Below are positions 1-43,911 of a stretch of DNA of 64,000 bases, one piece after another (position 1 is the first letter of the stretch; the number at the start of each line of letters is the position of its first letter). Made by a program: the position numbers and the translations under genes. Location: positions 32,532,109 through 32,596,108 of the forward strand of contig NC_135356.1 in assembly GCF_051622035.1 (NCBI RefSeq), written 5' to 3'. The DNA is from Arctopsyche grandis. Its lineage: Eukaryota > Arthropoda > Insecta > Trichoptera > Hydropsychidae. The notes beneath the pieces were generated by a model. That model made no database searches and was not told the DNA's origin. It saw only the letters and a program-made list of their open reading frames with translations.

Positions 1-388
1 CAGCAGCTCCCTTGATTTGCTCGCTAGCAGTAAATTCTCAGTTTTTAAATGTTCGAACCGTCGGAATTGATTTCTTTTTAAGTGAATGCAAATTGAATAT
101 TCGGTTTCAAACTTGATGTTCATTTGGTTGGGCTTTCAAAATGTTCCCACATGAGCTTCTCGTTTGGTATTTGCATTGGAATTTCCAGATAACATTGCCG
201 ACGGCTTGTCTTTTGTAGCGAATACAGTAGGCGGATTAGGTTTGGAGTTCATCGAACTCACACTTATGTGTGTAAAAATTTACAAATATATACGAAGAGT
301 ACACATGTATGTAGGTACATATTTATGTATGTATATGTAGGCTCAATTACCAACTTGGACTATCGTCATCCCCAGCATCGGTAATACC

Positions 389-671
389 GGCTCCGGCTTT
401 TATCTGGTTGTATAATCGATGTTGCTCCTCATCCAAAAACGGAGGATAGCCGACAATTATAAAATATACAAAATTACTCCGCAAGCCCAAATATCTTCTG
501 GCTTTCCGTACAGTTCATTCTTAAGAACCTCTCGCGATAGATAGTCAGGAGTTCTAGCAGAGCCAAACAAGGCTTGCTGATCACCCTGATTTTCAATTGC
601 CAAACCGAAATCCGCTAATTTTACAGCAGCTCCCTTGATTTGCTCGCTAGCAGTAAATTCTCAGTTTTTAA
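389..671 (-). pseudogene. CaMKII kinase-domain fragment (first of about 38 copies in the array)
   Basis: Read on the minus strand, this part of every monomer matches the calcium/calmodulin-dependent protein kinase II catalytic domain. It runs from the end of the catalytic loop ([11 protein letters not shown], family [11 protein letters not shown]), through [15 protein letters not shown] (DFG at 604-612) and an altered activation segment (TPDYLSRE instead of TPGYLSPE), to [27 protein letters not shown] and NQIKAGA. The HRD of the catalytic loop is not recognisable. One base is missing between ASKS and GAAV. Two extra bases plus a TAA follow ILYIL, so the frame is broken twice. Both lesions recur in all copies inspected, so they predate amplification. 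No intron is visible within the 283 bp. Known of the family: CaMKII is a Ser/Thr kinase regulated by calmodulin. This piece lacks the N-lobe, regulatory segment and hub, so it cannot encode a kinase. The 68-residue open frames in L copies are out-of-frame reads of it. Confidence 0.93.
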
Positions 672-2512
672 ATGTTCGAACCGTCGGAATTGATTTCTTT
701 TTAAGTGAATGCAAATTGAATATTCGGTTTCAAACTTGATGTTCATTTGGTTGGGCTTTCAAAATGTTCCCACATGAGCTTCTCGTTTGGTATTTGCATT
801 GGAATTTCCAGATAACATTGCCGACGGTTTGTCTTTTGTAGCGAATACAGTAGGCGGATTAGGTTTGGAGTTCATCGAACTTACACTTATGTGTGTAAAA
901 ATTTACAAATATATACGAAGAGTACACATGTATGTAGGTACATATTTAGGTATGTATATGTAGGCTCAATTACCAACTTGGACTATCGTCATCCCCAGCA
1001 TCGGTAATACCGGCTCCGGCTTTTATCTGGTTGTATAATCGATGTTGCTCCTCATCCAAAAACGAAGGATAGCCGACAATTGTAAAATATACAAAATATC
1101 AAGCAAAATATACGCAAGCCCAAATATCTTCTGGCTTTCCGTACAGTTCATTCTTAAGAACCTCTCGCGATAGATAGTCAGGAGTTCTAGCAGAGCCAAA
1201 CAAGGCTTGCTGATCACCCTGAACTTCAACTGCCAAACCGAAATCCGCTAATTTTACAGCAGCTCCCTTGATTTGCTCGCTAGCAGTAAATTCTCAGTTT
1301 TTAAATGTTCGAACCGTCGGAATTGATTTCTTTTTAAGTGAATGCAAATTAAATATTCGGTTTCAAACTTGATGTTCATTTGGTTGGGCTTTCAAAATGT
1401 TCCCACATGAGCTTCTCGTTTGGTATTTGCATTGGAATCTCCAGATAACATTGCCGACGGTTTGTCTTGTGTAGCGAATACAGTAGGCGGATTAGGTTTG
1501 GAGTTCATCGAACTCACACTTATGTGTGTAAAAATTTACAAATATATACGAAGAGTACACATGTATGTAGGTACATATTTAGGTATGTATATGTAGGCTC
1601 AATTACCAACTTGGACTATCGTCATCCCCAGCATCGGTAATACCGGCTCCGGCTTTTATCTGGTTGTATAATCGATGTTGCTCCTCATCCAAAAACGGAG
1701 GATAGCCGACAATTATAAAATATACAAAATTACTCCGCAAGCCCAAATATCTTCTGGCTTTCCGTACAGTTCATTCTTAAGAACCTCTCGCGATAGATAG
1801 TCAGGAGTTCTAGCAGAGCCAAACAAGGCTTGCTGATCACCCTGAACTTCAATTGCCAAACCGAAATCCGCTAATTTTACAGCAGCTCCCTTGATTTGCT
1901 CGCTAGCAGTAAATTCTCAGTTTTTAAATGTTCGAACCGTCGGAATTGATTTCTTTTTAAGTGAATGCAAATTGAATATTCGGTTTCAAACTTGATGTTC
2001 ATTTGGTTGGGCTTTCAAAATGTTCCCACATGAGCTTCTCGTTTGGTATTTGCATTGGAATTTCCAGATAACATTGCCGACGGTTTGTCTTTTGTAGCGA
2101 ATACAGTAGGCGGATTAGGTTTGGAGTTCATCGAACTTACACTTATGTGTGTAAAAATTTACAAATATATACGAAGAGTACACATGTATGTAGGTACATA
2201 TTTATGTATGTATATGTAGGCTCAATTACCAACTTGGACTATCGTCATCCCCAGCATCGGTAATACCGGCTCCGGCTTTTATCTGGTTGTATAATCGATG
2301 TTGCTCCTCATCCAAAAACGGAGGATAGCCGACAATTGTAAAATATACAAAATATCAAGCAAAATATACGCAAGCCCAAATATCTTCTGGCTTTCCGTAC
2401 AGTTCATTCTTAAGAACCTCTCGCGATAGATAGTCAGGAGTTCTAGCAGAGCCAAACAAGGCTTGCTGATCACCCTGAACTTCAATTGCCAAACCGAAAT
2501 CCGCTAATTTTA

Positions 2513-5500
2513 CAGCAGCTCCCTTGATTTGCTCGCTAGCAGTAAATTCTCAGTTTTTAAATGTTCGAACCGTCGGAATTGATTTCTTTTTAAGTGAATG
2601 CAAATTAAATATTCGGTTTCAAACTTGATGTTCATTTGGTTGGGCTTTCAAAATGTTCCCACATGAGCTTCTCGTTTGGTATTTGCATTGGAATCTCCAG
2701 ATAACATTGCCGACGGTTTGTCTTTTGTAGCGAATACAGTAGGCGGATTAGGTTTGGAGTTCATCGAACTCACACTTATGTGTGTAAAAATTTACAAATA
2801 TAAACGAAGAGTACACATGTATGTAGGTACATATTTATGTATGTATATGTAGGCTCAATTACCAACATGGACTATCGTCATCCCCAGCATCGGTAATACC
2901 GGCTCCGGCTTTTATCTGGTTGTATAATCGATGTTGCTCCTCATCCAAAAACGGAGGATAGCCGACAATTATAAAATATACAAAATTACTCCGCAAGCCC
3001 AAATATCTTCTGGCTTTCCGTACAGTTCATTCTTAAGAACCTCTCGCGATAGATAGTCAGGAGTTCTAGCAGAGCCAAACAAGGCTTGCTGATCACCCTG
3101 AACTTCAATTGCCAAACCGAAATCCGCTAATTTTACAGCAGCTCCCTTGATTTGCTCGCTAGCAGTAAATTCTCAGTTTTTAAATGTTCGAACCGTCGGA
3201 ATTGATTTCTTTTTAAGTGAATGCAAATTGAATATTCGGTTTCAAACTTGATGTTCATTTGGTTGGGCTTTCAAAATGTTCCCACATGAGCTTCTCGTTT
3301 GGTATTTGCATTGGAATTTCCAGATAACATTGCCGACGGTTTGTCTTTTGTAGCGAATACAGTAGGCGGATTAGGTTTGGAGTTCATCGAACTTACACTT
3401 ATGTGTGTAAAAATTTACAAATATATACGAAGAGTACACATGTATGTAGGTACATATTTATGTATGTATATGTAGGCTCAATTACCAACTTGGACTATCG
3501 TCATCCCCAGCATCGGTAATACCGGCTCCGGCTTTTATCTGGTTGTATAATCGATGTTGCTCCTCATCCAAAAACGGAGGATAGCCGACAATTATAAAAT
3601 ATACAAAATTACTCCGCAAGCCCAAATATCTTCTGGCTTTCCGTACAGTTCATTCTTAAGAACCTCTCGCGATAGATAGTCAGGAGTTCTAGCAGAGCCA
3701 AACAAGGCTTGCTGATCACCCTGATTTTCAATTGCTAAACCGAAATCCGCTAATTTTACAGCAGCTCCCTTGATTTGCTCGCTAGCAGTAAATTCTCAGT
3801 TTTTAAATGTTCGAACCGTCGGAATTGATTTCTTTTTAAGTGAATGCAAATTGAATATTCGGTTTCAAACTTGATGTTCATTTGGTTGGGCTTTCAAAAT
3901 GTTCCCACATGAGCTTCTCGTTTGGTATTTGCATTGGAATTTCCAGATAACATTGCCGACGGTTTGTCTTTTGTAGCGAATACAGTAGGCGGATTAGGTT
4001 TGGAGTTCATCGAACTTACACTTATGTGTGTAAAAATTTACAAATATATACGAAGAGTACACATGTATGTAGGTACATATTTATGTATGTATATGTAGGC
4101 TCAATTACCAACTTGGACTATCGTCATCCCCAGCATCGGTAATACCGGCTCCGGCTTTTATCTGGTTGTATAATCGATGTTGCTCCTCATCCAAAAACGG
4201 AGGATAGCCGACAATTATAAAATATACAAAATTACTCCGCAAGCCCAAATATCTTCTGGCTTTCCGTACAGTTCATTCTAAAGATCCTCTCGCGATAGAT
4301 AGTCAGGAGTTCTAGCAGAGCCAAACAAGGCTTGCTGATCACCCTGAACTTCAATTGCCAAACCGAAATCCGCTAATTTTACAGCAGCTCCCTTGATTTG
4401 CTCGCTAGCAGTAAATTCTCAGTTTTTAAATGTTCGAACCGTCGGAATTGATTTCTTTTTAAGTGAATGCAAATTGAATATTCGGTTTCAAACTTGATGT
4501 TCATTTGGTTGGGCTTTCAAAATGTTCCCACATGAGCTTCTCGTTTGGTATTTGCATTGGAATTTCCAGATAACATTGCCGACGGTTTGTCTTTTGTAGC
4601 GAATACAGTAGGCGGATTAGGTTTGGAGTTCATCGAACTTACACTTATGTGTGTAAAAATTTACGAATATATACGAAGAGTACACATGTTTGTAGGTACA
4701 TATTTAGGTTTGTATATGTAGGCTCAATTACCAACTTGGACTATCGTCATCCCCAGCATCGGTAATACCGGCTCCGGCTTTTATCTGGTTGTATAATCGA
4801 TGTTGCTCCTCATCCAAAAACGAAGGATAGCCGACAATTGTAAAATATACAAAATATCAAGCAAAATATACGCAAGCCCAAATATCTTCTGGCTTTCCGT
4901 ACAGTTCATTCTTAAGAACCTCTCGCGATAGATAGTCAGGAGTTCTAGCAGAGCCAAACAAGGCTTGCTGATCACCCTGAACTTCAATTGCCAAACCGAA
5001 ATCCGCTAATTTTACAGCAGCTCCCTTGATTTGCTCGCTAGCAGTAAATTCTCAGTTTTTAAATGTTCGAACCGTCGGAATTGATTTCTTTTTAAGTGAA
5101 TGCAAATTAAATATTCGGTTTCAAACTTGATGTTCATTTGGTTGGGCTTTCAAAATGTTCCCACATGAGCTTCTCGTTTGGTATTTGCATTGGAATCTCC
5201 AGATAACATTGCCGACGGTTTGTCTTTTGTAGCGAATACAGTAGGCGGATTAGGTTTGGAGTTCATCGAACTCACACTTATGTGTGTAAAAATTTACAAA
5301 TATATACGAAGAGTACACATGTATGTAGGTACATATTTAGGTATGTATATGTAGGCTCAATTACCAACTTGGACTATCGTCATCCCCAGCATCGGTAATA
5401 CCGGCTCCGGCTTTTATCTGGTTGTATAATCGATGTTGCTCCTCATCCAAAAACGGAGGATAGCCGACAATTATAAAATATACAAAATTACTCCGCAAGC

Positions 5501-7516
5501 CCAAATATCTTCTGGCTTTCCGTACAGTTCATTCTTAAGAACCTCTCGCGATAGATAGTCAGGAGTTCTAGCAGAGCCAAACAAGGCTTGCTGATCACCC
5601 TGAACTTCAATTGCCAAACCGAAATCCGCTAATTTTACAGCAGCTCCCTTGATTTGCTCGCTAGCAGTAAATTCTCAGTTTTTAAATGTTCGAACCGTCG
5701 GAATTGATTTCTTTTTAAGTGAATGCAAATGGAATATTCGCTTTCAAACTTGATGTTCATTTGGTTGGGCTTTCAAAATGTTCCCACATGAGCTTCTCGT
5801 TTGGTATTTGCATTGGAATTTCCAGATAACATTGCCGACGGTTTGTCTTTTGTAGCGAATACAGTAGGCGGATTAGGTTTGGAGTTCATCGAACTTACAC
5901 TTATGTGTGTAAAAATTTACAAATATATACGAAGAGTACACATGTATGTAGGTACATATTTATGTATGTATATGTAGGCTCAATTACCAACTTGGACTAT
6001 CGTCATCCCCAGCATCGGTAATACCGGCTCCGGCTTTTATCTGGTTGTATAATCGATGTTGCTCCTCATCCAAAAACGGAGGATAGCCGACAATTATAAA
6101 ATATACAAAATTACTCCGCAAGCCCAAATATCTTCTGGCTTTCCGTACAGTTCATTCTTAAGAACCTCTCGCGATAGATAGTCAGGAGTTCTAGCAGAGC
6201 CAAACAAGGCTTGCTGATCACCCTGATTTTCAATTGCTAAACCGAAATCCGCTAATTTTACAGCAGCTCCCTTGATTTGCTCGCTAGCAGTAAATTCTCA
6301 GTTTTTAAATGTTCGAACCGTCGGAATTGATTTCTTTTTAAGTGAATGCAAATTGAATATTCGGTTTCAAACTTGATGTTCATTTGGTTGGGCTTTCAAA
6401 ATGTTCCCACATGAGCTTCTCGTTTGGTATTTGCATTGGAATTTCCAGATAACATTGCCGACGGTTTGTCTTTTGTAGCGAATACAGTAGGCGGATTAGG
6501 TTTGGAGTTCATCGAACTTACACTTATGTGTGTAAAAATTTACAAATATATACGAAGAGTACACATGTATGTAGGTACATATTTATGTATGTATATGTAG
6601 GCTCAATTACCAACTTGGACTATCGTCATCCCCAGCATCGGTAATACCGGCTCCGGCTTTTATCTGGTTGTATAATCGATGTTGCTCCTCATCCAAAAAC
6701 GGAGGATAGCCGACAATTATAAAATATACAAAATTACTCCGCAAGCCCAAATATCTTCTGGCTTTCCGTACAGTTCATTCTTAAGAACCTCTCGCGATAG
6801 ATAGTCAGGAGTTCTAGCAGAGCCAAACAAGGCTTGCTGATCACCCTGAACTTCAATTGCCAAACCGAAATCCGCTAATTTTACAGCAGCTCCCTTGATT
6901 TGCTCGCTAGCAGTAAATTCTCAGTTTTTAAATGTTCGAACCGTCGGAATTGATTTCTTTTTAAGTGAATGCAAATTGAATATTCGGTTTCAAACTTGAT
7001 GTTCATTTGGTTGGGCTTTCAAAATGTTCCCACATGAGCTTCTCGTTTGGTATTTGCATTGGAATTTCCAGATAACATTGCCGACGGTTTGTCTTTTGTA
7101 GCGAATACAGTAGGCGGATTAGGTTTGGAGTTCATCGAACTTACACTTATGTGTGTAAAAATTTACGAATATATACGAAGAGTACACATGTTTGTAGGTA
7201 CATATTTATGTTTGTATATGTAGGCTCAATTACCAACTTGGACTATCGTCATCCCCAGCATCGGTAATACCGGCTCCGGCTTTTATCTGGTTGTATAATC
7301 GATGTTGCTCCTCATCCAAAAACGAAGGATAGCCGACAATTGTAAAATATACAAAATATCAAGCAAAATATACGCAAGCCCAAATATCTTCTGGCTTTCC
7401 GTACAGTTCATTCTTAAGAACCTCTCGCGATAGATAGTCAGGAGTTCTAGCAGAGCCAAACAAGGCTTGCTGATCACCCTGAACTTCAATTGCCAAACCG
7501 AAATCCGCTAATTTTA
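2513..7516. repeat. Two consecutive 2502-bp higher-order units (S-S-S-L)
   Basis: Monomers 2513-5014 and 5015-7516 have the same S-S-S-L order. They share a private marker in the second monomer: GATTTTCAATTGCTAAAC near 3721 and near 6224, 2502 bp apart. Other copies have GCCAAAC there. This shows block duplication of four monomers rather than only single-unit slippage. Confidence 0.8.
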
Positions 7517-10500
7517 CAGCAGCTCCCTTGATTTGCTCGCTAGCAGTAAATTCTCAGTTTTTAAATGTTCGAACCGTCGGAATTGATTTCTTTTTAAGTG
7601 AATGCAAATTAAATATTCGGTTTCAAACTTGATGTTCATTTGGTTGGGCTTTCAAAATGTTCCCACATGAGCTTCTCGTTTGGTATTTGCATTGGAATCT
7701 CCAGATAACATTGCCGACGGTTTGTCTTTTGTAGCGAATACAGTAGGCGGATTAGGTTTGGAGTTCATCGAACTCACACTTATGTGTGTAAAAATTTACA
7801 AATATATACGAAGAGTACACATGTATGTAGGTACATATTTAGGTATGTATATGTAGGCTCAATTACCAACTTGGACTATCGTCATCCCCAGCATCGGTAA
7901 TACCGGCTCCGGCTTTTATCTGGTTGTATAATCGATGTTGCTCCTCATCCAAAAACGGAGGATAGCCGACAATTATAAAATATACAAAATTACTCCGCAA
8001 GCCCAAATATCTTCTGGCTTTCCGTACAGTTCATTCTTAAGAACCTCTCGCGATAGATAGTCAGGAGTTCTAGCAGAGCCAAACAAGGCTTGCTGATCAC
8101 CCTGAACTTCAATTGCCAAACCGAAATCCGCTAATTTTACAGCAGCTCCCTTGATTTGCTCGCTAGCAGTAAATTCTCAGTTTTTAAATGTTCGAACCGT
8201 CGGAATTGATTTCTTTTTAAGTGAATGCAAATGGAATATTCGCTTTCAAACTTGATGTTCATTTGGTTGGGCTTTCAAAATGTTCCCACATGAGCTTCTC
8301 GTTTGGTATTTGCATTGGAATTTCCAGATAACATTGCCGACGGTTTGTCTTTTGTAGCGAATACAGTAGGCGGATTAGGTTTGGAGTTCATCGAACTTAC
8401 ACTTATGTGTGTAAAAATTTACGAATATATACGAAGAGTACACATGTTTGTAGGTACATATTTATGTTTGTATATGTAGGCTCAATTACCAACTTGGACT
8501 ATCGTCATCCCCAGCATCGGTAATACCGGCTCCGGCTTTTATCTGGTTGTATAATCGATGTTGCTCCTCATCCAAAAACGAAGGATAGCCGACAATTGTA
8601 AAATATACAAAATATCAAGCAAAATATACGCAAGCCCAAATATCTTCTGGCTTTCCGTACAGTTCATTCTTAAGAACCTCTCGCGATAGATAGTCAGGAG
8701 TTCTAGCAGAGCCAAACAAGGCTTGCTGATCACCCTGAACTTCAATTGCCAAACCGAAATCCGCTAATTTTACAGCAGCTCCCTTGATTTGCTCGCTAGC
8801 AGTAAATTCTCAGTTTTTAAATGTTCGAACCGTCGGAATTGATTTCTTTTTAAGTGAATGCAAATGGAATATTCGGTTTCAAACTTGATGTTCATTTGGT
8901 TGGGCTTTCAAAATGTTCCCACATGAGCTTCTCGTTTGGTATTTGCATTGGAATTTCCAGATAACATTGCCGACGGTTTGTCTTTTGTAGCGAATACAGT
9001 AGGCGGATTAGGTTTGGAGTTCATCGAACTTACACTTATGTGTGTAAAAATTTACAAATATATACGAAGAGTACACATGTATGTAGGTACATATTTATGT
9101 ATGTATATGTAGGCTCAATTACCAACTTGGACTATCGTCATCCCCAGCATCGGTAATACCGGCTCCGGCTTTTATCTGGTTGTATAATCGATGTTGCTCC
9201 TCATCCAAAAACGGAGGATAGCCGACAATTATAAAATATACAAAATTACTCCGCAAGCCCAAATATCTTCTGGCTTTCCGTACAGTTCATTCTTAAGAAC
9301 CTCTCGCGATAGATAGTCAGGAGTTCTAGCAGAGCCAAACAAGGCTTGCTGATCACCCTGAACTTCAATTGCCAAACCGAAATCCGCTAATTTTACAGCA
9401 GCTCCCTTGATTTGCTCGCTAGCAGTAAATTCTCAGTTTTTAAATGTTCGAACCGTCGGAATTGATTTCTTTTTAAGTGAATGCAAATTGAATATTCGGT
9501 TTCAAACTTGATGTTCATTTGGTTGGGCTTTCAAAATGTTCCCACATGAGCTTCTCGTTTGGTATTTGCATTGGAATTTCCAGATAACATTGCCGACGGT
9601 TTGTCTTTTGTAGCGAATACAGTAGGCGGATTAGGTTTGGAGTTCATCGAACTTACACTTATGTGTGTAAAAATTTACGAATATATACGAAGAGTACACA
9701 TGTTTGTAGGTACATATTTATGTTTGTATATGTAGGCTCAATTACCAACTTGGACTATCGTCATCCCCAGCATCGGTAATACCGGCTCCGGCTTTTATCT
9801 GGTTGTATAATCGATGTTGCTCCTCATCCAAAAACGAAGGATAGCCGACAATTGTAAAATATACAAAATATCAAGCAAAATATACGCAAGCCCAAATATC
9901 TTCTGGCTTTCCGTACAGTTCATTCTTAAGAACCTCTCGCGATAGATAGTCAGGAGTTCTAGCAGAGCCAAACAAGGCTTGCTGATCACCCTGAACTTCA
10001 ATTGCCAAACCGAAATCCGCTAATTTTACAGCAGCTCCCTTGATTTGCTCGCTAGCAGTAAATTCTCAGTTTTTAAATGTTCGAACCGTCGGAATTGATT
10101 TCTTTTTAAGTGAATGCAAATTAAATATTCGGTTTCAAACTTGATGTTCATTTGGTTGGGCTTTCAAAATGTTCCCACATGAGCTTCTCGTTTGGTATTT
10201 GCATTGGAATCTCCAGATAACATTGCCGACGGTTTGTCTTTTGTAGCGAATACAGTAGGCGGATTAGGTTTGGAGTTCATCGAACTCACACTTATGTGTG
10301 TAAAAATTTACAAATATATACGAAGAGTACACATGTATGTAGGTACATATTTAGGTATGTATATGTAGGCTCAATTACCAACTTGGACTATCGTCATCCC
10401 CAGCATCGGTAATACCGGCTCCGGCTTTTATCTGGTTGTATAATCGATGTTGCTCCTCATCCAAAAACGGAGGATAGCCGACAATTATAAAATATACAAA

Positions 10501-13500
10501 ATTACTCCGCAAGCCCAAATATCTTTTGGCTTTCCGTACAGTTCATTCTTAAGAACCTCTCGCGATAGATAGTCAGGAGTTCTAGCAGAGCCAAACAAGG
10601 CTTGCTGATCACCCTGAACTTCAATTGCCAAACCGAAATCCGCTAATTTTACAGCAGCTCCCTTGATTTGCTCGCTAACAGTAAATTCTCAGTTTTTAAA
10701 TGTTCGAACCGTCGGAATTGATTTCTTTTTAAGTGAATGCAAATGGAATATTCGCTTTCAAACTTGATGTTCATTTGGTTGGGCTTTCAAAATGTTCCCA
10801 CATGAGCTTCTCGTTTGGTATTTGCATTGGAATTCCCAGATAACATTGCCGACGGTTTGTCTTTTGTAGCGAATACAGTAGGCGGATTAGGTTTGGAGTT
10901 CATCGAACTCACACTTATGTGTGTAAAAATTTACAAATATATACGAAGAGTACACATGTATGTAGGTACATATTTATGTATGTATATGTAGGCTCAATTA
11001 CCAACATGGACTATCGTCATCCCCAGCATCGGTAATACCGGCTCCGGCTTTTATCTGGTTGTATAATCGATGTTGCTCCTCATCCAAAAACGGAGGATAG
11101 CCGACAATTATAAAATATACAAAATTACTCCGCAAGCCCAAATATCTTCTGGCTTTCCGTACAGTTCATTCTTAAGAACCTCTCGCGATAGATAGTCAGG
11201 AGTTCTAGCAGAGCCAAACAAGGCTTGCTGATCACCCTGAACCTCAATTGCCAAACCGAAATCCGCTAATTTTACAGCAGCTCCCTTGATTTGCTCGCTA
11301 GCAGTAAATTCTCAGTTTTTAAATGTTCGAACCGTCGGAATTGATTTCTTTTTAAGTGAATGCAAATGGAATATTCGCTTTCAAACTTGATGTTCATTTG
11401 GTTGGGCTTTCAAAATGTTCCCACATGAGCTTCTCGTTTGGTATTTGCATTGGAATTTCCAGATAACATTGCCGACGGTTTGTCTTTTGTAGCGAATACA
11501 GTAGGCGGATTAGGTTTGGAGTTCATCGAACTTACACTTATGTGTGTAAAAATTTACGAATATATACGAAGAGTACACATGTTTGTAGGTACATATTTAT
11601 GTTTGTATATGTAGGCTCAATTACCAACTTGGACTATCGTCATCCCCAGCATCGGTAATACCGGCTCCGGCTTTTATCTGGTTGTATAATCGATGTTGCT
11701 CCTCATCCAAAAACGGAGGATAGCCGACAATTGTAAAATATACAAAATATCAAGCAAAATATACGCAAGCCCAAATATCTTCTGGCTTTCCGTACAGTTC
11801 ATTCTTAAGAACCTCTCGCGATAGATAGTCAGGAGTTCTAGCAGAGCCAAACAAGGCTTGCTGATCACCCTGAACTTCAATTGCCAAACCGAAATCCGCT
11901 AATTTTACAGCAGCTCCCTTGATTTGCTCGCTAGCAGTAAATTCTCAGTTTTTAAATGTTCGAACCGTCGGAATTGATTTCTTTTTAAGTGAATGCAAAT
12001 TGAATATTCGGTTTCAAACTTGATGTTCATTTGGTTGGGCTTTCAAAATGTTCCCACATGAGCTTCTCGTTTGGTATTTGCATTGGAATTTCCAGATAAC
12101 ATTGCCGACGGTTTGTCTTTTGTAGCGAATACAGTAGGCGGATTAGGTTTGGAGTTCATCGAACTCACACTTATGTGTGTAAAAATTTACAAATATATAC
12201 GAAGAGTACACATGTATGTAGGTACATATTTAGGTATGTATATGTAGGCTCAATTACCAACTTGGACTATCGTCATCCCCAGCATCGGTAATACCGGCTC
12301 CGGCTTTTATCTGGTTGTATAATCGATGTTGCTCCTCATCCAAAAACGGAGGATAGCCGACAATTATAAAATATACAAAATTACTCCGCAAGCCCAAATA
12401 TCTTCTGGCTTTCCGTACAGTTCATTCTTAAGAACCTCTCGCGATAGATAGTCAGGAGTTCTAGCAGAGCCAAACAAGGCTTGCTGATCACCCTGAACTT
12501 CAATTGCCAAACCGAAATCCGCTAATTTTACAGCAGCTCCCTTGATTTGCTCGCTAGCAGTAAATTCTCAGTTTTTAAATGTTCGAACCGTCGGAATTGA
12601 TTTCTTTTTAAGTGAATGCAAATGGAATATTCGCTTTCAAACTTGATGTTCATTTGGTTGGGCTTTCAAAATGTTCCCACATGAGCTTCTCGTTTGGTAT
12701 TTGCATTGGAATTTCCAGATAACATTGCCGACGGTTTGTCTTTTGTAGCGAATACAGTAGGCGGATTAGGTTTGGAGTTCATCGAACTTACACTTATGTG
12801 TGTAAAAATTTACGAATATATACGAAGAGTACACAAATTTGTAGGTACATATTTATGTTTGTATATGTAGGCTCAATTACCAACTTGGACTATCGTCATC
12901 CCCAGCATCGGTAATACCGGCTCCGGCTTTTATCTGGTTGTATAATCGATGTTGCTCCTCATCCAAAAACGAAGGATAGCCGACAATTGTAAAATATACA
13001 AAATATCAAGCAAAATATACGCAAGCCCAAATATCTTCTGGCTTTCCGTACAGTTCATTCTTAAGAACCTCTCGCGATAGATAGTCAGGAGTTCTAGCAG
13101 AGCCAAACAAGGCTTGCTGATCACCCTGAACTTCAATTGCCAAACCGAAATCCGCTAATTTTACAGCAGCTCCCTTGATTTGCTCGCTAGCAGTAAATTC
13201 TCAGTTTTTAAATGTTCGAACCGTCGGAATTGATTTCTTTTTAAGTGAATGCAAATGGAATATTCGGTTTCAAACTTGATGTTCATTTGGTTGGGCTTTC
13301 AAAATGTTCCCACATGAGCTTCTCGTTTGGTATTTGCATTGGAATTTCCAGATAACATTGCCGACGGTTTGTCTTTTGTAGCGAATACAGTAGGCGGATT
13401 AGGTTTGGAGTTCATCGAACTTACACTTATGTGTGTAAAAATTTACAAATATATACGAAGAGTACACATGTATGTAGGTACATATTTATGTATGTATATG

Positions 13501-16500
13501 TAGGCTCAATTACCAACTTGGACTATCGTCATCCCCAGCATCGGTAATACCGGCTCCGGCTTTTATCTGGTTGTATAATCGATGTTGCTCCTCATCCAAA
13601 AACGGAGGATAGCCGACAATTATAAAATATACAAAATTACTCCGCAAGCCCAAATATCTTCTGGCTTTCCGTACAGTTCATTCTTAAGAACCTCTCGCGA
13701 TAGATAGTCAGGAGTTCTAGCAGAGCCAAACAAGGCTTGCTGATCACCCTGATTTTCAATTGCCAAACCGAAATCCGCTAATTTTACAGCAGCTCCCTTG
13801 ATTTGCTCGCTAGCAGTAAATTCTCAGTTTTTAAATGTTCGAACCGTCGGAATTGATTTCTTTTTAAGTGAATGCAAATTGAATATTCGGTTTCAAACTT
13901 GATGTTCATTTGGTTGGGCTTTCAAAATGTTCCCACATGAGCTTCTCGTTTGGTATTTGCATTGGAATTTCCAGATAACATTGCCGACGGTTTGTCTTTT
14001 GTAGCGAATACAGTAGGCGGATTAGGTTTGGAGTTCATCGAACTTACACTTATGTGTGTAAAAATTTACAAATATATACGAAGAGTACACATGTATGTAG
14101 GTACATATTTATGTATGTATATGTAGGCTCAATTACCAACTTGGACTATCGTCATCCCCAGCATCGGTAATACCGGCTCCGGCTTTTATCTGGTTGTATA
14201 ATCGATGTTGCTCCTCATCCAAAAACGGAGGATAGCCGACAATTATAAAATATACAAAATTACTCCGCAAGCCCAAATATCTTCTGGCTTTCCGTACAGT
14301 TCATTCTTAAGAACCTCTCGCGATAGATAGTCAGGAGTTCTAGCAGAGCCAAACAAGGCTTGCTGATCACCCTGAACTTCAATTGCCAAACCGAAATCCG
14401 CTAATTTTACAGCAGCTCCCTTGATTTGCTCGCTAGCAGTAAATTCTCAGTTTTTAAATGTTCGAACCGTCGGAATTGATTTCTTTTTAAGTGAATGCAA
14501 ATTGAATATTCGGTTTCAAACTTGATGTTCATTTGGTTGGGCTTTCAAAATGTTCCCACATGAGCTTCTCGTTTGGTATTTGCATTGGAATTTCCAGATA
14601 ACATTGCCGACGGTTTGTCTTTTGTAGCGAATACAGTAGGCGGATTAGGTTTGGAGTTCATCGAACTTACACTTATGTGTGTAAAAATTTACGAATATAT
14701 ACGAAGAGTACACATGTTTGTAGGTACATATTTATGTTTGTATATGTAGGCTCAATTACCAACTTGGACTATCGTCATCCCCAGCATCGGTAATACCGGC
14801 TCCGGCTTTTATCTGGTTGTATAATCGATGTTGCTCCTCATCCAAAAACGAAGGATAGCCGACAATTGTAAAATATACAAAATATCAAGCAAAATATACG
14901 CAAGCCCAAATATCTTCTGGCTTTCCGTACAGTTCATTCTTAAGAACCTCTCGCGATAGATAGTCAGGAGTTCTAGCAGAGCCAAACAAGGCTTGCTGAT
15001 CACCCTGAACTTCAATTGCCAAACCGAAATCCGCTAATTTTACAGCAGCTCCCTTGATTTGCTCGCTAGCAGTAAATTCTCAGTTTTTAAATGTTCGAAC
15101 CGTCGGAATTGATTTCTTTTTAAGTGAATGCAAATTAAATATTCGGTTTCAAACTTGATGTTCATTTGGTTGGGCTTTCAAAATGTTCCCACATGAGCTT
15201 CTCGTTTGGTATTTGCATTGGAATTTCCAGATAACATTGCCGACGGTTTGTCTTTTGTAGCGAATACAGTAGGCGGATTAGGTTTGGAGTTCATCGAACT
15301 TACACTTATGTGTGTAAAAATTTACAAATATATACGAAGAGTACACATGTATGTAGGTACATATTTATGTATGTATATGTAGGCTCAATTACCAACTTGG
15401 ACTATCGTCATCCCCAGCATCGGTAATACCGGCTCCGGCTTTTATCTGGTTGTATAATCGATGTTGCTCCTCATCCAAAAACGGAGGATAGCCGACAATT
15501 ATAAAATATACAAAATTACTCCGCAAGCCCAAATATCTTCTGGCTTTCCGTACAGTTCATTCTTAAGAACCTCTCGCGATAGATAGTCAGGAGTTCTAGC
15601 AGAGCCAAACAAGGCTTGCTGATCACCCTGAACTTCAATTGCCAAACCGAAATCCGCTAATTTTACAGCAGCTCCCTTGATTTGCTCGCTAGCAGTAAAT
15701 TCTCAGTTTTTAAATGTTCGAACCGTCGGAATTGATTTCTTTTTAAGTGAATGCAAATTGAATATTCGGTTTCAAACTTGATGTTCATTTGGTTGGGCTT
15801 TCAAAATGTTCCCACATGAGCTTCTCGTTTGGTATTTGCATTGGAATTTCCAGATAACATTGCCGACGGTTTGTCTTTTGTAGCGAATACAGTAGGCGGA
15901 TTAGGTTTGGAGTTCATCGAACTTACACTTATGTGTGTAAAAATTTACAAATATATACGAAGAGTACACATGTATGTAGGTACATATTTATGTATGTATA
16001 TGTAGGCTCAATTACCAACTTGGACCATCGTCATCCCCAGCATCGGTAATACCGGCTCCGGCTTTTATCTGGTTGTATAATCGATGTTGCTCCTCATCCA
16101 AAAACGGAGGATAGCCGACAATTATAAAATATACAAAATTACTCCGCAAGCCCAAATATCTTCTGGCTTTCCGTACAGTTCATTCTTAAGAACCTCTCGC
16201 GATAGATAGTCAGGAGTTCTAGCAGAGCCAAACAAGGCTTGCTGATCACCCTGATTTTCAATTGCCAAACCGAAATCCGCTAATTTTACAGCAGCTCCCT
16301 TGATTTGCTCGCTAGCAGTAAATTCTCAGTTTTTAAATGTTCGAACCGTCGGAATTGATTTCTTTTTAAGTGAATGCAAATTGAATATTCGGTTTCAAAC
16401 TTGATGTTCATTTGGTTGGGCTTTCAAAATGTTCCCACATGAGCTTCTTGTTTGGTATTTGCATTGGAATTTCCAGATAACATTGCCGACGGTTTGTCTT

Positions 16501-19423
16501 TTGTAGCGAATACAGTAGGCGGATTAGGTTTGGAGTTCATCGAACTTACACTTATGTGTGTAAAAATTTACAAATATATACGAAGAGTACACATGTATGT
16601 AGGTACATATTTAGGTATGTATATGTAGGCTCAATTACCAACTTGGACTATCGTCATCCCCAGCATCGGTAATACCGGCTCCGGCTTTTATCTGGTTGTA
16701 TAATCGATGTTGCTCCTCATCCAAAAACGGAGGATAGCCGACAATTATAAAATATACAAAATATCAAGCAAAATATACGCAAGCCCAAATATCTTCTGGC
16801 TTTCCGTACAGTTCATTCTTATGAACCTCTCGCGATAGATAGTCAGGAGTTCTAGCAGAGCCAAACAAGGCTTGCTGATCACCCTGAACTTCAATTGCCA
16901 AACCGAAATCCGCTAATTTTACAGCAGCTCCCTTGATTTGCTCGCTAGCAGTAAATTCTCAGTTTTTAAATGTTCGAACCGTCGGAATTGATTTCTTTTT
17001 AAGTGAATGCAAATGGAATATTCGGTTTCAAACTTGATGTTCATTTGGTTGGGCTTTCAAAATGTTCCCACATGAGCTTCTCGTTTGGTATTTGCATTGG
17101 AATTTCCAGATAACATTGCCGACGGTTTGTCTTTTGTAGCGAATACAGTAGGCGGATTAGGTTTGGAGTTCATCGAACTTACACTTATGTGTGTAAAAAT
17201 TTACAAATATATACGAAGAGTACACATGTATGTAGGTACATATTTATGTATGTATATGTAGGCTCTATTACCAACTTGGACTTTCGTCATCCCCAGCATC
17301 GGTAATACCGGCTCCGGCTTTTATCTGGTTGTATAATCGATGTTGCTCCTCATCCAAAAACGGAGGATAGCCGACAATTATAAAATATACAAAATTACTC
17401 CGCAAGCCCAAATATCTTCTGGCTTTCCGTACAGTTCATTCTTAAGAACCTCTCGCGATAGATAGTCAGGAGTTCTAGCAGAGCCAAACAAGGCTTGCTG
17501 ATCACCCTGATTTTCAATTGCCAAACCGAAATCCGCTAATTTTACAGCAGCTCCCTTGATTTGCTCGCTAGCAGTAAATTCTCAGTTTTTAAATGTTCGA
17601 ACCGTCGGAATTGATTTCTTTTTAAGTGAATGCAAATGGAATATTCGCTTTCAAACTTGATGTTCATTTGGTTGGGCTTTCAAAATGTTCCCACATGAGC
17701 TTCTCGTTTGGTATTTGCATTGGAATTTCCAGATAACATTGCCGACGGTTTGTCTTTTGTAGCGAATACAGTAGGCGGATTAGGTTTGGAGTTCATCGAA
17801 CTCACACTTATGTGTGTAAAAATTTACAAATATATACGAAGAGTACACATGTATGTAGGTACATATTTAGGTATGTATATGTAGGCTCAATTACCAACTT
17901 GGACTATCGTCATCCCCAGCATCGGTAATACCGGCTCCGGCTTTTATCTGGTTGTATAATCGATGTTGCTCCTCATCCAAAAACGGAGGATAGCCGACAA
18001 TTATAAAATATACAAAATTACTCCGCAAGCCCAAATATCTTTTGGCTTTCCGTACAGTTCATTCTTAAGAACCTCTCGCGATAGATAGTCAGGAGTTCTA
18101 GCAGAGCCAAACAAGGCTTGCTGATCACCCTGAACTTCAATTGCCAAACGGAAATCCGCTAATTTTACAGCAGCTCCCTTGATTTGCTCGCTAACAGTAA
18201 ATTCTCAGTTTTTAAATGTTCGAACCGTCGGAATTGATTTCTTTTTAAGTGAATGCAAATGGAATATTCGCTTTCAAACTTGATGTTCATTTGGTTGGGC
18301 TTTCAAAATGTTCCCACATGAGCTTCTCGTTTGGTATTTGCATTGGAATTTCCAGATAACATTGCCGACGGTTTGTCTTTTGTAGCGAATACAGTAGGCG
18401 GATTAGGTTTGGAGTTCATCGAACTTACACTTATGTGTGTAAAAATTTACAAATATATACGAAGAGTACACATGTATGTAGGTACATATTTATGTATGTA
18501 TATGTAGGCTCAATTACCAACTTGGACTATCGTCATCCCCAGCATCGGTAATACCGGCTCCGGCTTTTATCTGGTTGTATAATCGATGTTGCTCCTCATC
18601 CAAAAACGGAGGATAGCCGACAATTATAAAATATACAAAATTACTCCGCAAGCCCAAATATCTTCTGGCTTTCCGTACAGTTCATTCTTAAGAACCTCTC
18701 GCGATAGATAGTCAGGAGATCTAGCAGAGCCAAACAAGGCTTGCTGATCACCCTGATTTTCAATTGCCAAACCGAAATCCGCTAATTTTACAGCAGCTCC
18801 CTTGATTTGCTCGCTAGCAGTAAATTCTCAGTTTTTAAATGTTCGAACCGTCGGAATTGATTTCTTTTTAAGTGAATGCAAATTGAATATTCGGTTTCAA
18901 ACTTGATGTTTATTTGGTTGGGCTTTCAAAATGTTCCCACATGAGCTTCTCGTTTGGTATTTGCATTGGAATTTCCAGATAACATTGCCGACGGTTTGTC
19001 TTTTGTAGCGAATACAGTAGGTGGATTTGGTTTGGAGTTCATCGAACTTACACTTATGTGTGTAAAAATTTACAAATATATACGAAGAGTACACTTGTAT
19101 GTAGGTACATATTTATGTTTGTATATGTAGGCTCAATTACCAACTTGGACTATCGTCATCCCCAGCATCGGTAATACCGGCTCCGGCTTTTATCTGGTTG
19201 TATAATCGATGTTGCTCCTCATCCAAAAACGGAGGATAGCCGACAATTGTAAAATATACAAAATATCAAGCAAAATATACGCAAGCCCAAATATCTTCTG
19301 GCTTTCCGTACAGTTCATTCTTAAGAACCTCTCGCGATAGATAGTCAGGAGTTCTAGCAGAGCCAAACAAGGCTTGCTGATCACCCTGAACTTCAATTGC
19401 CAAACCGAAATCCGCTAATTTTA

Positions 19424-21302
19424 CAGCAGCTCCCTTGATTTGCTCGCTAGCAGTAAATTCTCAGTTTTTAAATGTTCGAACCGTCGGAATTGATTTCTTT
19501 TTAAGTGAATGCAAATTGAATATTCGGTTTCAAACTTGATGTTCATTTGGTTGGGCTTTCAAAATGTTCCCACATGAGCTTCTCGTTTGGTATTTGCATT
19601 GGAATTTCCAGATAACAATGCCGACGGTTTGTCTTTTGTAGCGAATACAGTAGGCGGATTAGGTTTGGAGTTCATCGAACTTACACTTATGTGTGTAAAA
19701 ATTTACAAATATATACGAAGAGTACACATGTATGTAGGTACATTTTTATGTATGTATATGTAGGCTCAATTACCAACTTGGACTATCGTCATCCCCAGCA
19801 TCGGTAATACCGGCTCCGGCTTTTATCTGGTTGTATAATCGATGTTGCTCCTCATCCAAAAACGGAGGATAGCCGACAATTATAAAATATACAAAATTAC
19901 TCCGCAAGCCCAAATATCTTCTGGCTTTCCGTACAGTTCATTCTTAAGAACCTCTCGCGATAGATAGTCAGGAGTTCTAGCAGAGCCAAACAAGGCTTGC
20001 TGATCACCCTGAACTTCAATTGCCAAACCGAAATCCGCTAATTTTACAGCAGCTCCCTTGATTTGCTCGCTAGCAGTAAATTCTCAGTTTTTAAATGTTC
20101 GAACCGTCGGAATTGATTTCTTTTTAAGTGAATGCAAATGGAATATTCGCTTTCAAACTTGATGTTCATTTGGTTGGGCTTTCAAAATGTTCCCACATGA
20201 GCTTCTCGTTTGGTATTTGCATTGGAATTTCCAGATAACATTGCCGACGGTTTGTCTTTTGTAGCGAATACAGTAGGCGGATTAGGTTTGGCGTTCATCG
20301 AACTTACACTTATGTGTGTAAAAATTTACGAATATATACGAAGAGTACACATGTTTGTAGGTACATATTTATGTTTGTATATGTAGGCTCAATTACCAAC
20401 TTGGACTATCGTCATCCCCAGCATCGGTAATACCGGCTCCGGCTTTTATCTGGTTGTATAATCGATGTTGCTCCTCATCCAAAAACGGAGGATAGCCGAC
20501 AATTGTAAAATATACAAAATATCAAGCAAAATATACGCAAGCCCAAATATCTTCTGGCTTTCCGTACAGTTCATTCTTAAGAACCTCTCGCGATAGATAG
20601 TCAGGAGTTCTAGCAGAGCCAAACAAGGCTTGCTGATCACCCTGAACTTCAATTGCCAAACCGAAATCCGCTAATTTTACAGCAGCTCCCTTGATTTGCT
20701 CGCTAGCAGTAAATTCTCAGTTTTTAAATGTTCGAACCGTCGGAATTGATTTCTTTTTAAGTGAATGCAAATTGAATATTCGGTTTCAAACTTGATGTTC
20801 ATTTGGTTGGGCTTTCAAAATGTTCCCACATGAGCTTCTCGTTTGGTATTTGCATTGGAATTTCCAGATAACAATGCCGACGGTTTGTCTTTTGTAGCGA
20901 ATACAGTAGGCGGATTAGGTTTGGAGTTCATCGAACTTACACTTATGTGTGTAAAAATTTACAAATATATACGAAGAGTACACATGTATGTAGGTACATT
21001 TTTATGTATGTATATGTAGGCTCAATTACCAACTTGGACTATCGTCATCCCCAGCATCGGTAATACCGGCTCCGGCTTTTATCTGGTTGTATAATCGATG
21101 TTGCTCCTCATCCAAAAACGGAGGATAGCCGACAATTATAAAATATACAAAATTACTCCGCAAGCCCAAATATCTTCTGGCTTTCCGTACAGTTCATTCT
21201 TAAGAACCTCTCGCGATAGATAGTCAGGAGTTCTAGCAGAGCCAAACAAGGCTTGCTGATCACCCTGAACTTCAATTGCCAAACCGAAATCCGCTAATTT
21301 TA
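19424..21302. repeat. Duplicated S+L dimer (1256 bp) within the satellite
   Basis: The S monomers at 19424 and 20680 share two variants not seen elsewhere: ATAACAATGCCGAC (19613 and 20869) and GTACATTTTTATG (19737 and 20993). Both pairs are 1256 bp apart. The simplest reading is a recent unequal exchange or conversion that copied one S+L dimer. Confidence 0.8.
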
Positions 21303-21925
21303 CAGCAGCTCCCTTGATTTGCTCGCTAGCAGTAAATTCTCAGTTTTTAAATGTTCGAACCGTCGGAATTGATTTCTTTTTAAGTGAATGCAAATGGAAT
21401 ATTCGCTTTCAAACTTGATGTTCATTTGGTTGGGCTTTCAAAATGTTCCCACATGAGCTTCTCGTTTGGTATTTGCATTGGAATTTCCAGATAACATTGC
21501 CGACGGTTTGTCTTTTGTAGCGAATACAGTAGGCGGATTAGGTTTGGAGTTCATCGAACTCACACTTATGTGTGTAAAAATTTACAAATATATACGAAGA
21601 TTACACATGTATGTAGGTACATATTTGGGTATGTATATGTAGGCTCAATTACCAACTTGGACTATCGTCATCCCCAGCATCGGTAATACCGGCTCCGGCT
21701 TTTATCTGGTTGTATAATCGATGTTGCTCCTCATCCAAAAACGGAGGATAGCCGACAATTATAAAATATACAAAATTACTCCGCAAGCCCAAATATCTTC
21801 TGGCTTTCCGTACAGTTCATTCTTAAGAACCTCTCGCGATAGATAGTCAGGAGTTCTAGCAGAGCCAAACAAGGCTTGCTGATCACCCTGAACTTCAATT
21901 GCCAAACCGAAATCCGCTAATTTTA

Positions 21926-23191
21926 CAGCAGCTCCCTTGATTTGCTCGCTAGCAGTAAATTCTCAGTTTTTAAATGTTCGAACCGTCGGAATTGATTTCT
22001 TTTTAAGTGAATGCAAATGGAATATTCGCTTTCAAACTTGATGTTCATTTGGTTGGGCTTTCAAAATGTTCCCACATGAGCTTCTCGTTTGGTATTTGCA
22101 TTGGAATTTCCAGATAACATTGCCGACGGTTTGTCTTTTGTAGCGAATACAGTAGGCGGATTAGGTTTGGAGTTCATCGAACTTACACTTATGTGTGTAA
22201 AAATTTACGAATATATACGAAGAGTACACATGTTTGTAGGTACATATTTATGTTTGTATATGTAGGCTCAATTACCAACTTGGACTATCGTCATCCCCAG
22301 CATCGGTAATACCGGCTCCGGCTTTTATCTGGTTGTATAATCGATGTTGCTCCTCATCCAAAAACGGAGGATAGCCGACAATTGTAAAATATACAAAATA
22401 TCAAGCAAAATATACGCAAGCCCAAATATCTTCTGGCTTTCCGTACAGTTCATTCTTAAGAACCTCTCGCGATAGATAGTCAGGAGTTCTAGCAGAGCCA
22501 AACAAGGCTTGCTGATCACCCTGAACTTCAATTGCCAAACCGAAATCCGCTAATTTTACAGCAGCTCCCTTGATTTGCTCGCTAGCAGTAAATTCTCAGT
22601 TTTTAAATGTTCGAACCGTCGGAATTGATTTCTTTTTAAGTGAATGCAAATGGAATATTCGCTTTCAAACTTGATGTTCATTTGGTTGGGCTTTCAAAAT
22701 GTTCCCACATGAGCTTCTCGTTTGGTATTTGCATTGGAATTTCCAGATAACATTGCCGACGGTTTGTCTTTTGTAGCGAATACAGTAGGCGGATTAGGTT
22801 TGGAGTTCATCGAACTTACACTTATGTGTGTAAAAATTTACGAATATATACGAAGAGTACACATGTTTGTAGGTACATATTTATGTTTGTATATGTAGGC
22901 TCAATTACCAACTTGGACTATCGTCATCCCCAGCATCGGTAATACCGGCTCCGGCTTTTATCTGGTTGTATAATCGATGTTGCTCCTCATCCAAAAACGG
23001 AGGATAGCCGACAATTGTAAAATATACAAAATATCAAGCAAAATATACGCAAGCCCAAATATCTTCTGGCTTTCCGTACAGTTCATTCTTAAGAACCTCT
23101 CGCGATAGATAGTCAGGAGTTCTAGCAGAGCCAAACAAGGCTTGCTGATCACCCTGAACTTCAATTGCCAAACCGAAATCCGCTAATTTTA
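21926..23191. repeat. Only pair of adjacent long (633-bp) monomers
   Basis: Two L monomers (21926 and 22559) lie directly side by side and both carry the ACGAATATATACGAAG / ATGTTTGTAGG variant. Everywhere else in the window L copies are separated by at least one S copy. This pair sits next to the array's right edge. Confidence 0.85.
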
Positions 23192-23793
23192 CAGCAGCTC
23201 CCTTGATTTGCTCGCTAGCAGTAAATTCTCAGTTTTTAAATGTTCGAACCGTCGGAATTGATTTATTTTTAAGTGAATGCAAATGGAATATTCGCTTTCA
23301 AACTTGATGTTCATTTGGTTGGGCTTTCAAAATGTTCCCACATGAGCTTCTCGTTTGGTATTTGCATTGGAATTTCCAGATAACATTGCCGACGGTTTGT
23401 CTTTTGTAGCGAATACAGTAGGCGGATTAGGTTTGGAGTTCATCGAACTTACACTTATGTGTGTAAAAATTTACGAATATATACGAAGAGTACACATGTT
23501 TGTAGGTACATATTTATGTTTGTATATGTAGGCTCAATTACCAAATTGGACTATCGTCATCCCCAGCATCGGTAATACCGGCTCCGGCTTTTATCTGGTT
23601 GTATAATCGATGTTGCTCCTCATCCAAAAACGGAGGATAGCCGACAATTATAAAATATACAAAATTACTCCGCAAGCCCAAATATCTTCTGGCTTTCCGT
23701 ACAGTTCATTCTTAAGAACTTCTCGCGATAGATAGTCAGGAGTTCTAGCAGAGCCAAACCAGGCTTGCTGATCGACCTGAACTTCAATTGCCA

Positions 23794-35770: not shown

Positions 35771-37708
35771 TTGAACACTGTAATTAGTTCGGTTCTAACC
35801 TCAACAGGTAAGAAATTAGGTGGATTCAGGAAACAGATTAAATTAAGCAAAATTTCAGCGGAAACAAAAAACCTAATTAAGCATAAAAGGAATTTAGATA
35901 GGGATAATAATAAGCAAGAATACAATCTAGTAAATAAGGAAATTAAAAAGAGAATAGTCAGGGATGTCAGGGATTTTAACAGCAAGTTAATAGAAAGTAC
36001 CATTAAGAATAACCGTAGCCTGAAAAAGTACAAACAGGATCTTTTCTTAGGCAAAAACCAAATGATCGCAATCAGATCAGAGAGCGGAGTAATAATTAGG
36101 AATAGAGAAGAAATCATAGACAGAGTTTACACGTTCTATGCAAAACTATACGAGAACGACAACGGCCAATTCCCCGCTCTGGAACCGACACACGGCCAAA
36201 GGGTTCCTGCAGTATTGCCTAGCGAAGTAGAGGCCGCGCTAAAAACTGCAAAGAACGGTAAAACCCCAGGGGAAGATTATATTCCCATTGACTTACTAAA
36301 ATGTGGCGGCTCCCCCCTCAATAATATCTTAGCTAGGCTTTTCAGCAAATGCATCCAGAACCAAGCTATACCAGAAGGATGGAATAACGCAACTATCATC
36401 TTAATACACAAAAAAGGTGATAAAAGCGATATCAAGAACTACCGACCCATTAGTTTACTTTCAGCGGTCTACAAGCTCTTCACGAAGGTTATTACAGAAA
36501 GGCTGAAGAATATCCTCGACGAGAACCAACCTATAGAACAGGCAGGATTTAGGGCAAATTTCAGTACAATGGACCACCTCCAAGTAGTTGGCGAACTAAT
36601 CGAACGCGCCAACGAATATCAACGGCCATTGTGCCTAGGTTTCGTCGATTATGAGAAAGCCTTCGATACAGTGAGCCACAATGCAGTACTTAACGCTCTA
36701 CAAACACAGGGAGTACCGGAACCCTATGTGGGGCTGTTAGCTGCAATATATAAGAATGCCACAGCTTCGGTTAAAATTTTTTCAGGTACAGATAGATTTA
36801 GCATAAGAAAAGGAGTAAGACATGGAGATACAATCTCGCCCAAGTTATTCAATGCGGTGCTTGAGGGAGTTTTCAGGAACTTGGAATGGGACAAAGCCGG
36901 AGTAAGCATCAACGGTCGCTTCTTGAGTCACCTTCGGTTCGCAGACGATATAGTTTTAATAGCTCGTGATTCAGCTGACCTACTTAACAGACTAACACAG
37001 CTGGACAGGGAAAGTAGAAAAGTAGGATTAAAAATTAACGTAGATAAGACCAAACTAATGTTCAATAGGTATTGCATGCCTGATAGCATCCCATTAGATG
37101 ATAAACCAGTAGAAGTAGTAAATAATTATTTATATTTAGGTCAAATAATTGACATGTCTGGTAATAAAGATGAAGAGATAAAGAGACGTATGAAATTAGG
37201 ATGGAGTGCATTTGGACGGATGAATGCTGTTTTTAAATCAAAAATGCCACTCTGCCTGAAGAAAAAGATCTTTGATCAATGCGTTTTGCCAGTGATGACG
37301 TATGGATGTGAAACTTGGACACTGAACACCAAGATGCTACATAAAATCCAATGCACTCAAAGAAGTATGGAGCGCTGTATGCTTGGCATAACGAGAAAAG
37401 ACAGAAAGCGGAACACGTGGGTGAGAAGTATGACAAGAGTAGTGGACATAGTGGATAGAGTGAAGAGATTGAAATGGCAATGGGCGGGTCACGTAGCTAG
37501 GAGGATGGACGAAAGGTGGACAAAAGAATTGCTTGAATGGTACCCGAGAGAATGCAAAAGGGTAAAAGGAAGACCGCAAGGAAGATGGGTGAACGAAATT
37601 AGGAAAATGTGCGGGGTGAGATGGATGAGTGTTGCGCAAAACAGAGACGGGTGGAAGCGTGTTGGAGAGGCCTTCATCCAGCAGTGGATGGCGAGTGGCT
37701 GTAAATGA
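35771..37708 (+). CDS. RTE reverse transcriptase part of ORF2
   Basis: 645 codons from the first in-frame ATG; the true domain continues upstream without a stop to about 35670. Motifs in order: [50 protein letters not shown] (first catalytic D), [24 protein letters not shown] (catalytic DD) and [12 protein letters not shown]. These are followed by the RTE thumb/C-terminal region with [15 protein letters not shown]-like [17 protein letters not shown] and KGRPQGRW. All three catalytic aspartates are kept. No RNase H and no CCHC knuckle, as expected for RTE. The protein would lack its endonuclease because of the upstream frameshift. Confidence 0.9.
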
Positions 37709-43546: not shown

Positions 43547-43667
43547 TATATATTTGTAGAATATCATCATTGACAGCGATATCATCACCAATCTTATGGC
43601 AAATGTCACTGATAAGTGAGATAAAATCTTTGTAGCAATGTTTCTTTTTATTCATTAAACCATCTTT
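43547..43667. repeat. 121-bp direct repeat, left copy
   Basis: Identical by eye to 43972-44092. It lies inside coding sequence of the unrecognised gene and duplicates about 40 codons. The intervening 304 bp contain dispersed repeat A and three short tandem copies of TATATATTTGTAGAATATC-type sequence taken from the repeat's edge. Confidence 0.95.
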
Positions 43668-43698
43668 TATATCTACCATCTACAATACACAATTATAC

Positions 43699-43901
43699 GA
43701 GTTAACAAGTATACAAATCAGTCAGTTTAGTGAAAAAAACATGTAGTGATAAATTTAAAATATTCTCGATATTTTCGAGATTCATAAAAAATATTCTCGA
43801 GATATCAGAATCTCGAAATTTCACAATAAAATATTCTCGAAAAACGAGGATCAAAATTTCTCGAGAAATCTCGAGACGAGATTTCTCGATCACAACCTCT
43901 A
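43699..43901 (-). repeat. Dispersed repeat A, copy 2
   Basis: The reverse complement begins TAGAGGTTGTGATCGAGAAA and follows the same order of CGAGATT / TCTCGAGAATATTTT blocks as 26415-26611, ending ...CACTACATG, CTGACTGATTTGTATACTTG. It lies between the two 121-bp repeats and interrupts the unrecognised gene. Confidence 0.75.
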
Positions 43902-43911
43902 CATGTAATTT

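Follow-up and report, generated by a model that had tools for sequence, protein, structure and literature searches.

Repeat arrays made of gene fragments are known from flies and from a moth, and some of them act on the gene from which they were derived. In Drosophila melanogaster, AT-chX is a known cluster of PIWI-interacting RNAs (piRNAs) in the pericentromeric X, whose tandem repeats contain divergent sequence from one gene, namely exons 4-5 of vasa; as described, its piRNAs leave vasa at 76% identity unsilenced and silence vasa alleles of related species above 90% (PMC7874207, PMC11172174). In Plutella xylostella (Lepidoptera), Pxyfem is described as 11 W-linked tandem copies of a fragment derived from complementary DNA of the gene Masc, joined to pieces of long terminal repeat elements and lying in two orientations in graveyards of transposable elements (TEs), with small RNAs shown against the parent gene (PMC9674220). 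Stellate/Su(Ste) and pseudo-CK2-beta-tes of Drosophila are amplified copies derived from a protein-kinase subunit gene, and the Stellate repeats are reported to yield a translated product from units that have a promoter and an exon-intron structure (PMC7874207). Here we describe a satellite of the caddisfly Arctopsyche grandis (Trichoptera, Hydropsychidae) whose monomers each carry a piece of the CaMKII kinase domain. Its right part lies in a stretch of 64,000 nucleotides, C2:32532109-32596108 (the window; C2, C1, C4 and C162 are contig labels of this analysis). We consider it probable that this is a non-coding satellite, selfish or neutral, that grew from a CaMKII fragment.

The array occupies the first third of the window. 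An earlier note on this DNA had claimed at least 38 tandem monomers here, each with the same frameshifted CaMKII piece on one strand, and exactly 38 head-to-tail monomers were found between 1 and 23793, with the piece on the minus strand in every one. They follow each other at a spacing of 620-633 bp (fuzzy anchor; we put the first value, 620 bp, down to the fuzziness of the anchor) and fall into 23 full monomers of 623 bp, 14 full monomers of 633 bp and one truncated unit. The additional 10 bp of the 633 class are located within the CaMKII-derived piece. Pairwise identity averages 97.9% (range 95.4-100), which places these long head-to-tail arrays of near-identical units among satellites. All copies share one orientation, and the window's own array showed the anchor in no reverse copy. 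A strict higher-order repeat was considered and rejected, identity against lag having no clean period.

The gene-derived part covers about 280 of the 623 bp, so that the description of the satellite as built from a CaMKII fragment holds for that part of the monomer. Translated with X at the lesions, the piece matched CaMKII among PDB sequences at 9.8e-44, with CASK as the next-best family (69 bits vs 150 for CaMKII), and it matched Pfam PF00069 at 1.4e-19. After 300 single-base shuffles of the piece the top score was 44, as against 246 for the real one. Chance similarity was rejected on the PDB match and this shuffle test; another kinase as the source was also rejected, since CASK and CaMKI score less than half of CaMKII. 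The translations tried of the other half of the monomer, about 340 bp, had no match in Pfam, PDB or the protein database, and a second gene was rejected as its origin on that ground. Furthermore, one exact 31-mer of the repeat had no copy in viral or prokaryotic collections, and of two protein scans of viral contigs the first yielded a single locus (55% over 29 residues) and the second none.

Two frame lesions, a 1-nt loss and a 2-nt gain, are present in 38/38 window copies. Across the whole array, which continues beyond the window, the 1-nt lesion was found in 61/66 units and the 2-nt lesion in 62/66; the remaining five and four units, respectively, are truncated short of the lesion site, and the lesions are thus in every unit that covers them. 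HRD, DFG and APE are names of motifs in kinase domains; an open kinase domain is absent from the monomers, which have only an inner piece with frameshifts and with SPE read as SRE. In the two monomers that were translated, all frames contain stops, and neither monomer has a translatable open reading frame (ORF) for a kinase. Because the frames are broken in every covering unit, the satellite makes no kinase. The shared lesions also support amplification after both frameshifts. The claim of the earlier note that amplification followed pseudogenisation stands to this extent; some amino-acid changes are later, as the left edge of the array indicates.

The array does not end with the window. Leftward it reaches C2:32491042, and as a whole it consists of five blocks, 39,003 bp in total, spanning 64,860 bp; the extent 1..23793 given earlier is right for the window and too short for the array. 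The blocks are separated by four insertions of 6,532, 2,552, 3,686 and 13,087 bp. The 3,686-bp insertion has ATGTAGGCTCA on both flanks and the 13,087-bp insertion has AACATT at its flanks, both as target-site duplications, and none was seen at the 6,532-bp and 2,552-bp insertions. By eye, the right end of the 3,686-bp insertion resembles the terminal part of the window's reverse-transcriptase ORF (35771-37708). The leftmost four units differ from the core consensus by 3.4-5.1%, against a mean of 0.8% in the core, and the leftmost units retain residues missing from the core (among them two W, one V and one A). This divergence together with the retained residues marks the edge as old and the core as homogenised later, and the residues retained only there mean that some amino-acid changes postdate the first tandem duplication. 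These statements give relative order only.

Other repeats lie close to this left edge. At C2:32464573-32465284 (L013), 26 kb to the left of the array, a stretch of 82 bp has 76% similarity to monomer positions 305-386 and adjoins a broken piece of an O-GlcNAc-transferase (OGT) gene (Pfam PF13844, 3.8e-24), which recurs 3.4 kb away and is a second conserved-gene fragment repeated in the zone of the satellite. A tandem array with a unit of about 215 bp lies just before the CaMKII satellite at C2:32488637-32490487 and again beside the OGT fragment at C2:32463630-32464335, which makes the neighbourhood a nest of local repeats.

Variation among the copies bears on how the array grew and whether it is under constraint. 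Thirty of the 37 full monomers are distinct. Identical monomers form five sets, and the only neighbours among them are units 36 and 37, the others lying apart. In 55 of 231 pairs of shared sites all four combinations occur. Such site pairs and scattered identical units are what unequal exchange and gene conversion leave behind, and the array would have grown by these two processes. Compared with the host gene, a 623 monomer has 14 nonsynonymous and 11 synonymous differences, whereas under random change the expected shares are about 68% nonsynonymous, 27% synonymous and 6% stop; against this expectation the satellite branch looks unconstrained, and the synonymous surplus would have arisen on the host gene's own branch. 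The 13 variants inside the gene-derived part comprise nine nonsynonymous, three synonymous and one stop. Variable columns number 17/277 in the gene-derived part and 29/341 in the rest (P 0.28); in the four left-edge units the direction is opposite, with 30/555 differences in the gene part, which is slightly more different, and 31/900 in the rest (P 0.08). Decay therefore looks neutral, the gene-derived part being no better conserved than the rest, and this favours a non-coding satellite.

The parent gene is present in the same genome. An intact CaMKII lies on another chromosome, at L019:1114-2655 (C1:8897007 on), as a single open frame of 513 codons from ATG, its coding part without introns. 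In genome searches with the best candidates scored, its N-terminal 135 residues gave one match at 100%, the next at 48%, and its C-terminal 137 residues gave one match; apart from the satellite, neither a second CaMKII nor another N- or C-terminal piece of CaMKII grade was found in these searches, and one CaMKII is thus what the terminal parts reveal. By eye, its 5' leader holds a possible splice acceptor, and this CaMKII may be a retrogene that took the place of one with introns. The earlier note had proposed alignment to the host CaMKII as a check, and this bore out the identification: a window monomer is 90.0% identical over 280 nt, with 25 mismatches and 2 gaps (blastn).

The satellite is concentrated on one chromosome. 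In a genome protein search 150 of 1195 candidates, the best ones, were scored, and its counts are therefore lower bounds. Of the 150 scored matches, 147 lie on C2 in one 3-Mb zone (31.02-34.05 Mb), where about a dozen clusters besides that of the window occur, some in plus and some in minus orientation. The other three are the intact CaMKII on C1, a more distant kinase on C4 (52%) and one match on the small contig C162. At 14 loci (seven C2 clusters and C162) the identity of copies longer than 200 nt to the host CaMKII ranges over 86.6-91.4%, the lowest values, near 87%, belonging to the 633 class. Clusters in both orientations within 3 Mb imply inversions or re-insertion during the spread.

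Why does the piece begin and end where it does? Intron places of other CaMKII genes offer one answer. They were read from CaMKII-like proteins, the best 120 of 564 listed, many of which are open frames from genomic contigs. Following the variable motif KAG[A/T]YD, 55/61 have V, the residue that a GT splice donor would give, whereas 5/61 continue as coding and 1/61 otherwise; before PENLLLASK, 28/77 have Q, the residue that a CAG acceptor would give. The satellite's match to the host gene starts 3 nt upstream of the 5' intron place and ends 7 nt before the 3' place. For a random fragment, the chance of both ends lying so close to these two places is 7.5e-5, before allowing for the choice among several introns. 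The similarity breaks off abruptly at the ends of the piece, and upstream none was found (P 0.60, 1000 single-base shuffles). In addition, a 10-residue stretch is common to the satellite and the host gene and occurs in none of the 72 covering proteins of this set, which points to a donor of the host lineage. Since the piece ends near intron places of other CaMKII genes, a donor with introns there is suggested, and it was probably an older, intron-bearing CaMKII; the satellite would then be a relic of a CaMKII form now lost. The earlier description of the piece as an exon can be kept for such an ancestor and was dropped for the present host gene, because that gene is intronless.

The following course of events would account for these observations. 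A piece of about 280 nt from a former, probably intron-bearing CaMKII would have been joined at the DNA level to about 340 bp of unrelated sequence on C2, would have lost its frame and would then have been duplicated in tandem. Unequal exchange and gene conversion would have enlarged the array to a non-coding satellite, which would have spread over about 3 Mb of C2 and founded about a dozen further clusters there, some in plus and some in minus orientation. Its left end has been eroded by insertions, and it would persist as a selfish or neutral repeat. Several observations weigh against this account. Downstream of the piece there is a weak trace of similarity (P 0.086, 1000 single-base shuffles), which includes a weak SP.W similarity after KAGA. 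In the same set of proteins, 33/77 frames have no intron at the 5' place and read HRDLK directly ahead of it, and the match of the satellite passes that place by 3 nt, or by two codons (L, K) when translated, an overrun that may be chance. The sole CaMKII found is intronless and the intron-bearing donor was not seen. Finally, identities of 90-91% to the host gene are near the level sufficient for small-RNA targeting in one published case.

The overrun and the SP.W trace would also fit a fragment that began as a retrocopy of CaMKII messenger RNA (mRNA), an origin proposed for Pxyfem, or as an arbitrary stretch of the intronless gene, and that was cut short on both sides before it was amplified; and because the gene is intronless, mRNA-derived and DNA-derived fragments would look alike. 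Apart from the overrun, however, the piece keeps to the interval between two intron places, its ends being no more than 3 and 7 nt away from these, and the genome searches gave no further terminal match of CaMKII grade, so we regard this origin as unlikely. Although repeats are a classic place for misassembly, it is scarcely credible that a single locus was collapsed or falsely multiplied here, given that the 37 full monomers comprise 30 different sequences and two length classes, that the old edge is graded, that target-site duplications flank two of the insertions and that many separate clusters exist.

The earlier note had raised a role through RNA or chromatin and had properly marked its small-RNA idea as inference. 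On that idea, transcripts of the arrays in both orientations would give rise to piRNAs or small interfering RNAs acting on CaMKII mRNA, in the species or in hybrids. The clusters do lie in both orientations, as do the Pxyfem arrays, and the copies are close to the only CaMKII found. When the 285 26-mers of a 310-nt stretch of the host CaMKII were compared with the copies of the window array, 60 were matched at one mismatch or fewer, 139 at two or fewer and 222 at three or fewer. By analogy with the silencing of vasa alleles above 90%, the identity of the satellite to CaMKII would sit on the AT-chX border. On the other hand, only one 26-mer was matched exactly, the 633-class copies are lower in identity, and all copies of the window's own array share one orientation. 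Because variation is as high in the gene-derived part as outside it, nothing shows the match to CaMKII being kept, and there is no sign of selection for it. We consider a small-RNA source improbable. A fuller proposal is slightly more doubtful still: with their match of about 90%, the C2 arrays would be a small-RNA source that tunes or silences CaMKII in hybrids or the germ line, and would also preserve, as a fossil, a CaMKII with introns whose place an intronless copy has taken. The interpretation of the earlier note as a whole is partly supported, and a non-coding satellite derived from a CaMKII fragment is the reading that we carry forward. Positions of its parts are given in Table 1.

Table 1. 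Coordinates of the CaMKII-derived satellite and its parts in the window.
Feature	Position	Strand	Basis
Right part of satellite array, 37 full (623/633 bp) and 1 truncated monomer	1..23793	+	Anchor search; array extends left outside window
CaMKII-derived piece (example), about 280 nt, LK.ENLLLAS to KAGA, recurs in each monomer	3525..3803	-	blastn to host gene; PDB match
Shared lesion 1 (example), 1-nt loss between LLLAS and next 11-residue segment	3761..3778	-	Context in 38/38 window copies; host-gene alignment
Shared lesion 2 (example), 2-nt gain between LYIL and VGYPPF	3585..3604	-	Context in 38/38 window copies; host-gene alignment
Rest of monomer (example), about 340 bp, without protein relative found for translations tried	3185..3523	.	
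Truncated last monomer, most private substitutions, right array edge	23189..23793	+	Anchor search

The truncated final unit has 7 private substitutions, the highest number, and the other units have at most 4. To the right of the array, several reverse-transcriptase and endonuclease pieces, apparently of non-LTR elements, lie between 27500 and 63500, with matches to PF00078 at 35774-37705, 40507-41442 and 49473-51254. A copy of an Arctopsyche gene family, split in two frames with a common repeated stretch, occupies 42486-44452 on the minus strand and has no Pfam match above the cut-off; its ORF 42489-43679 (minus) shares 98% identity with LOC143921147 of Arctopsyche grandis, and LOC143920832 and LOC143922170 are further relatives. 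A tandem block rich in G+C, with units of 30-77 bp, lies at 38338-38668 in a window otherwise rich in A+T. No RNA families were found in the window at gathering scores.

In caddisflies, conserved BUSCO genes associated with TEs have been described (PMC8881205). They resemble the present case in that repeats and conserved genes mingle in Trichoptera, and differ from it in that TE sequence is reported in or beside genes there, whereas here a gene piece became the repeat. A CaMKII-derived satellite was not found in literature searches of open-licence papers, which were only partly aimed at CaMKII and satellite DNA. What the present locus offers is a piece of a conserved signalling-kinase gene turned into a satellite concentrated on one chromosome, with the old edge, the living parent gene and the interruptions all visible, and it may record an exon of a lost intron-bearing CaMKII.

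The earlier note had named Stellate/Su(Ste) as the closest parallel, and this does not hold up well: the frames of the satellite are broken, unlike the Stellate repeats with their product, and CK2-beta is a regulatory subunit, whereas the satellite carries an inner piece of a catalytic domain. Like AT-chX, it is a tandem array whose units are homologous to exon sequence of one gene, yet it is about 90% identical to that gene instead of 76% and forms many clusters on C2 rather than one pericentromeric cluster on the X. Lepidoptera is the sister order of Trichoptera. With Pxyfem the satellite shares tandem gene-fragment copies lying in two orientations in TE graveyards; the W linkage, the origin from cDNA, the joined LTR-element pieces and the small RNAs against the parent gene are traits shown for Pxyfem. 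If small RNAs do arise from the satellite, it would join the gene-fragment arrays that act on the gene they came from, and would do so in the order neighbouring that of the moth with Pxyfem. AT-chX/vasa and Pxyfem/Masc are closer parallels to the CaMKII satellite than Stellate.

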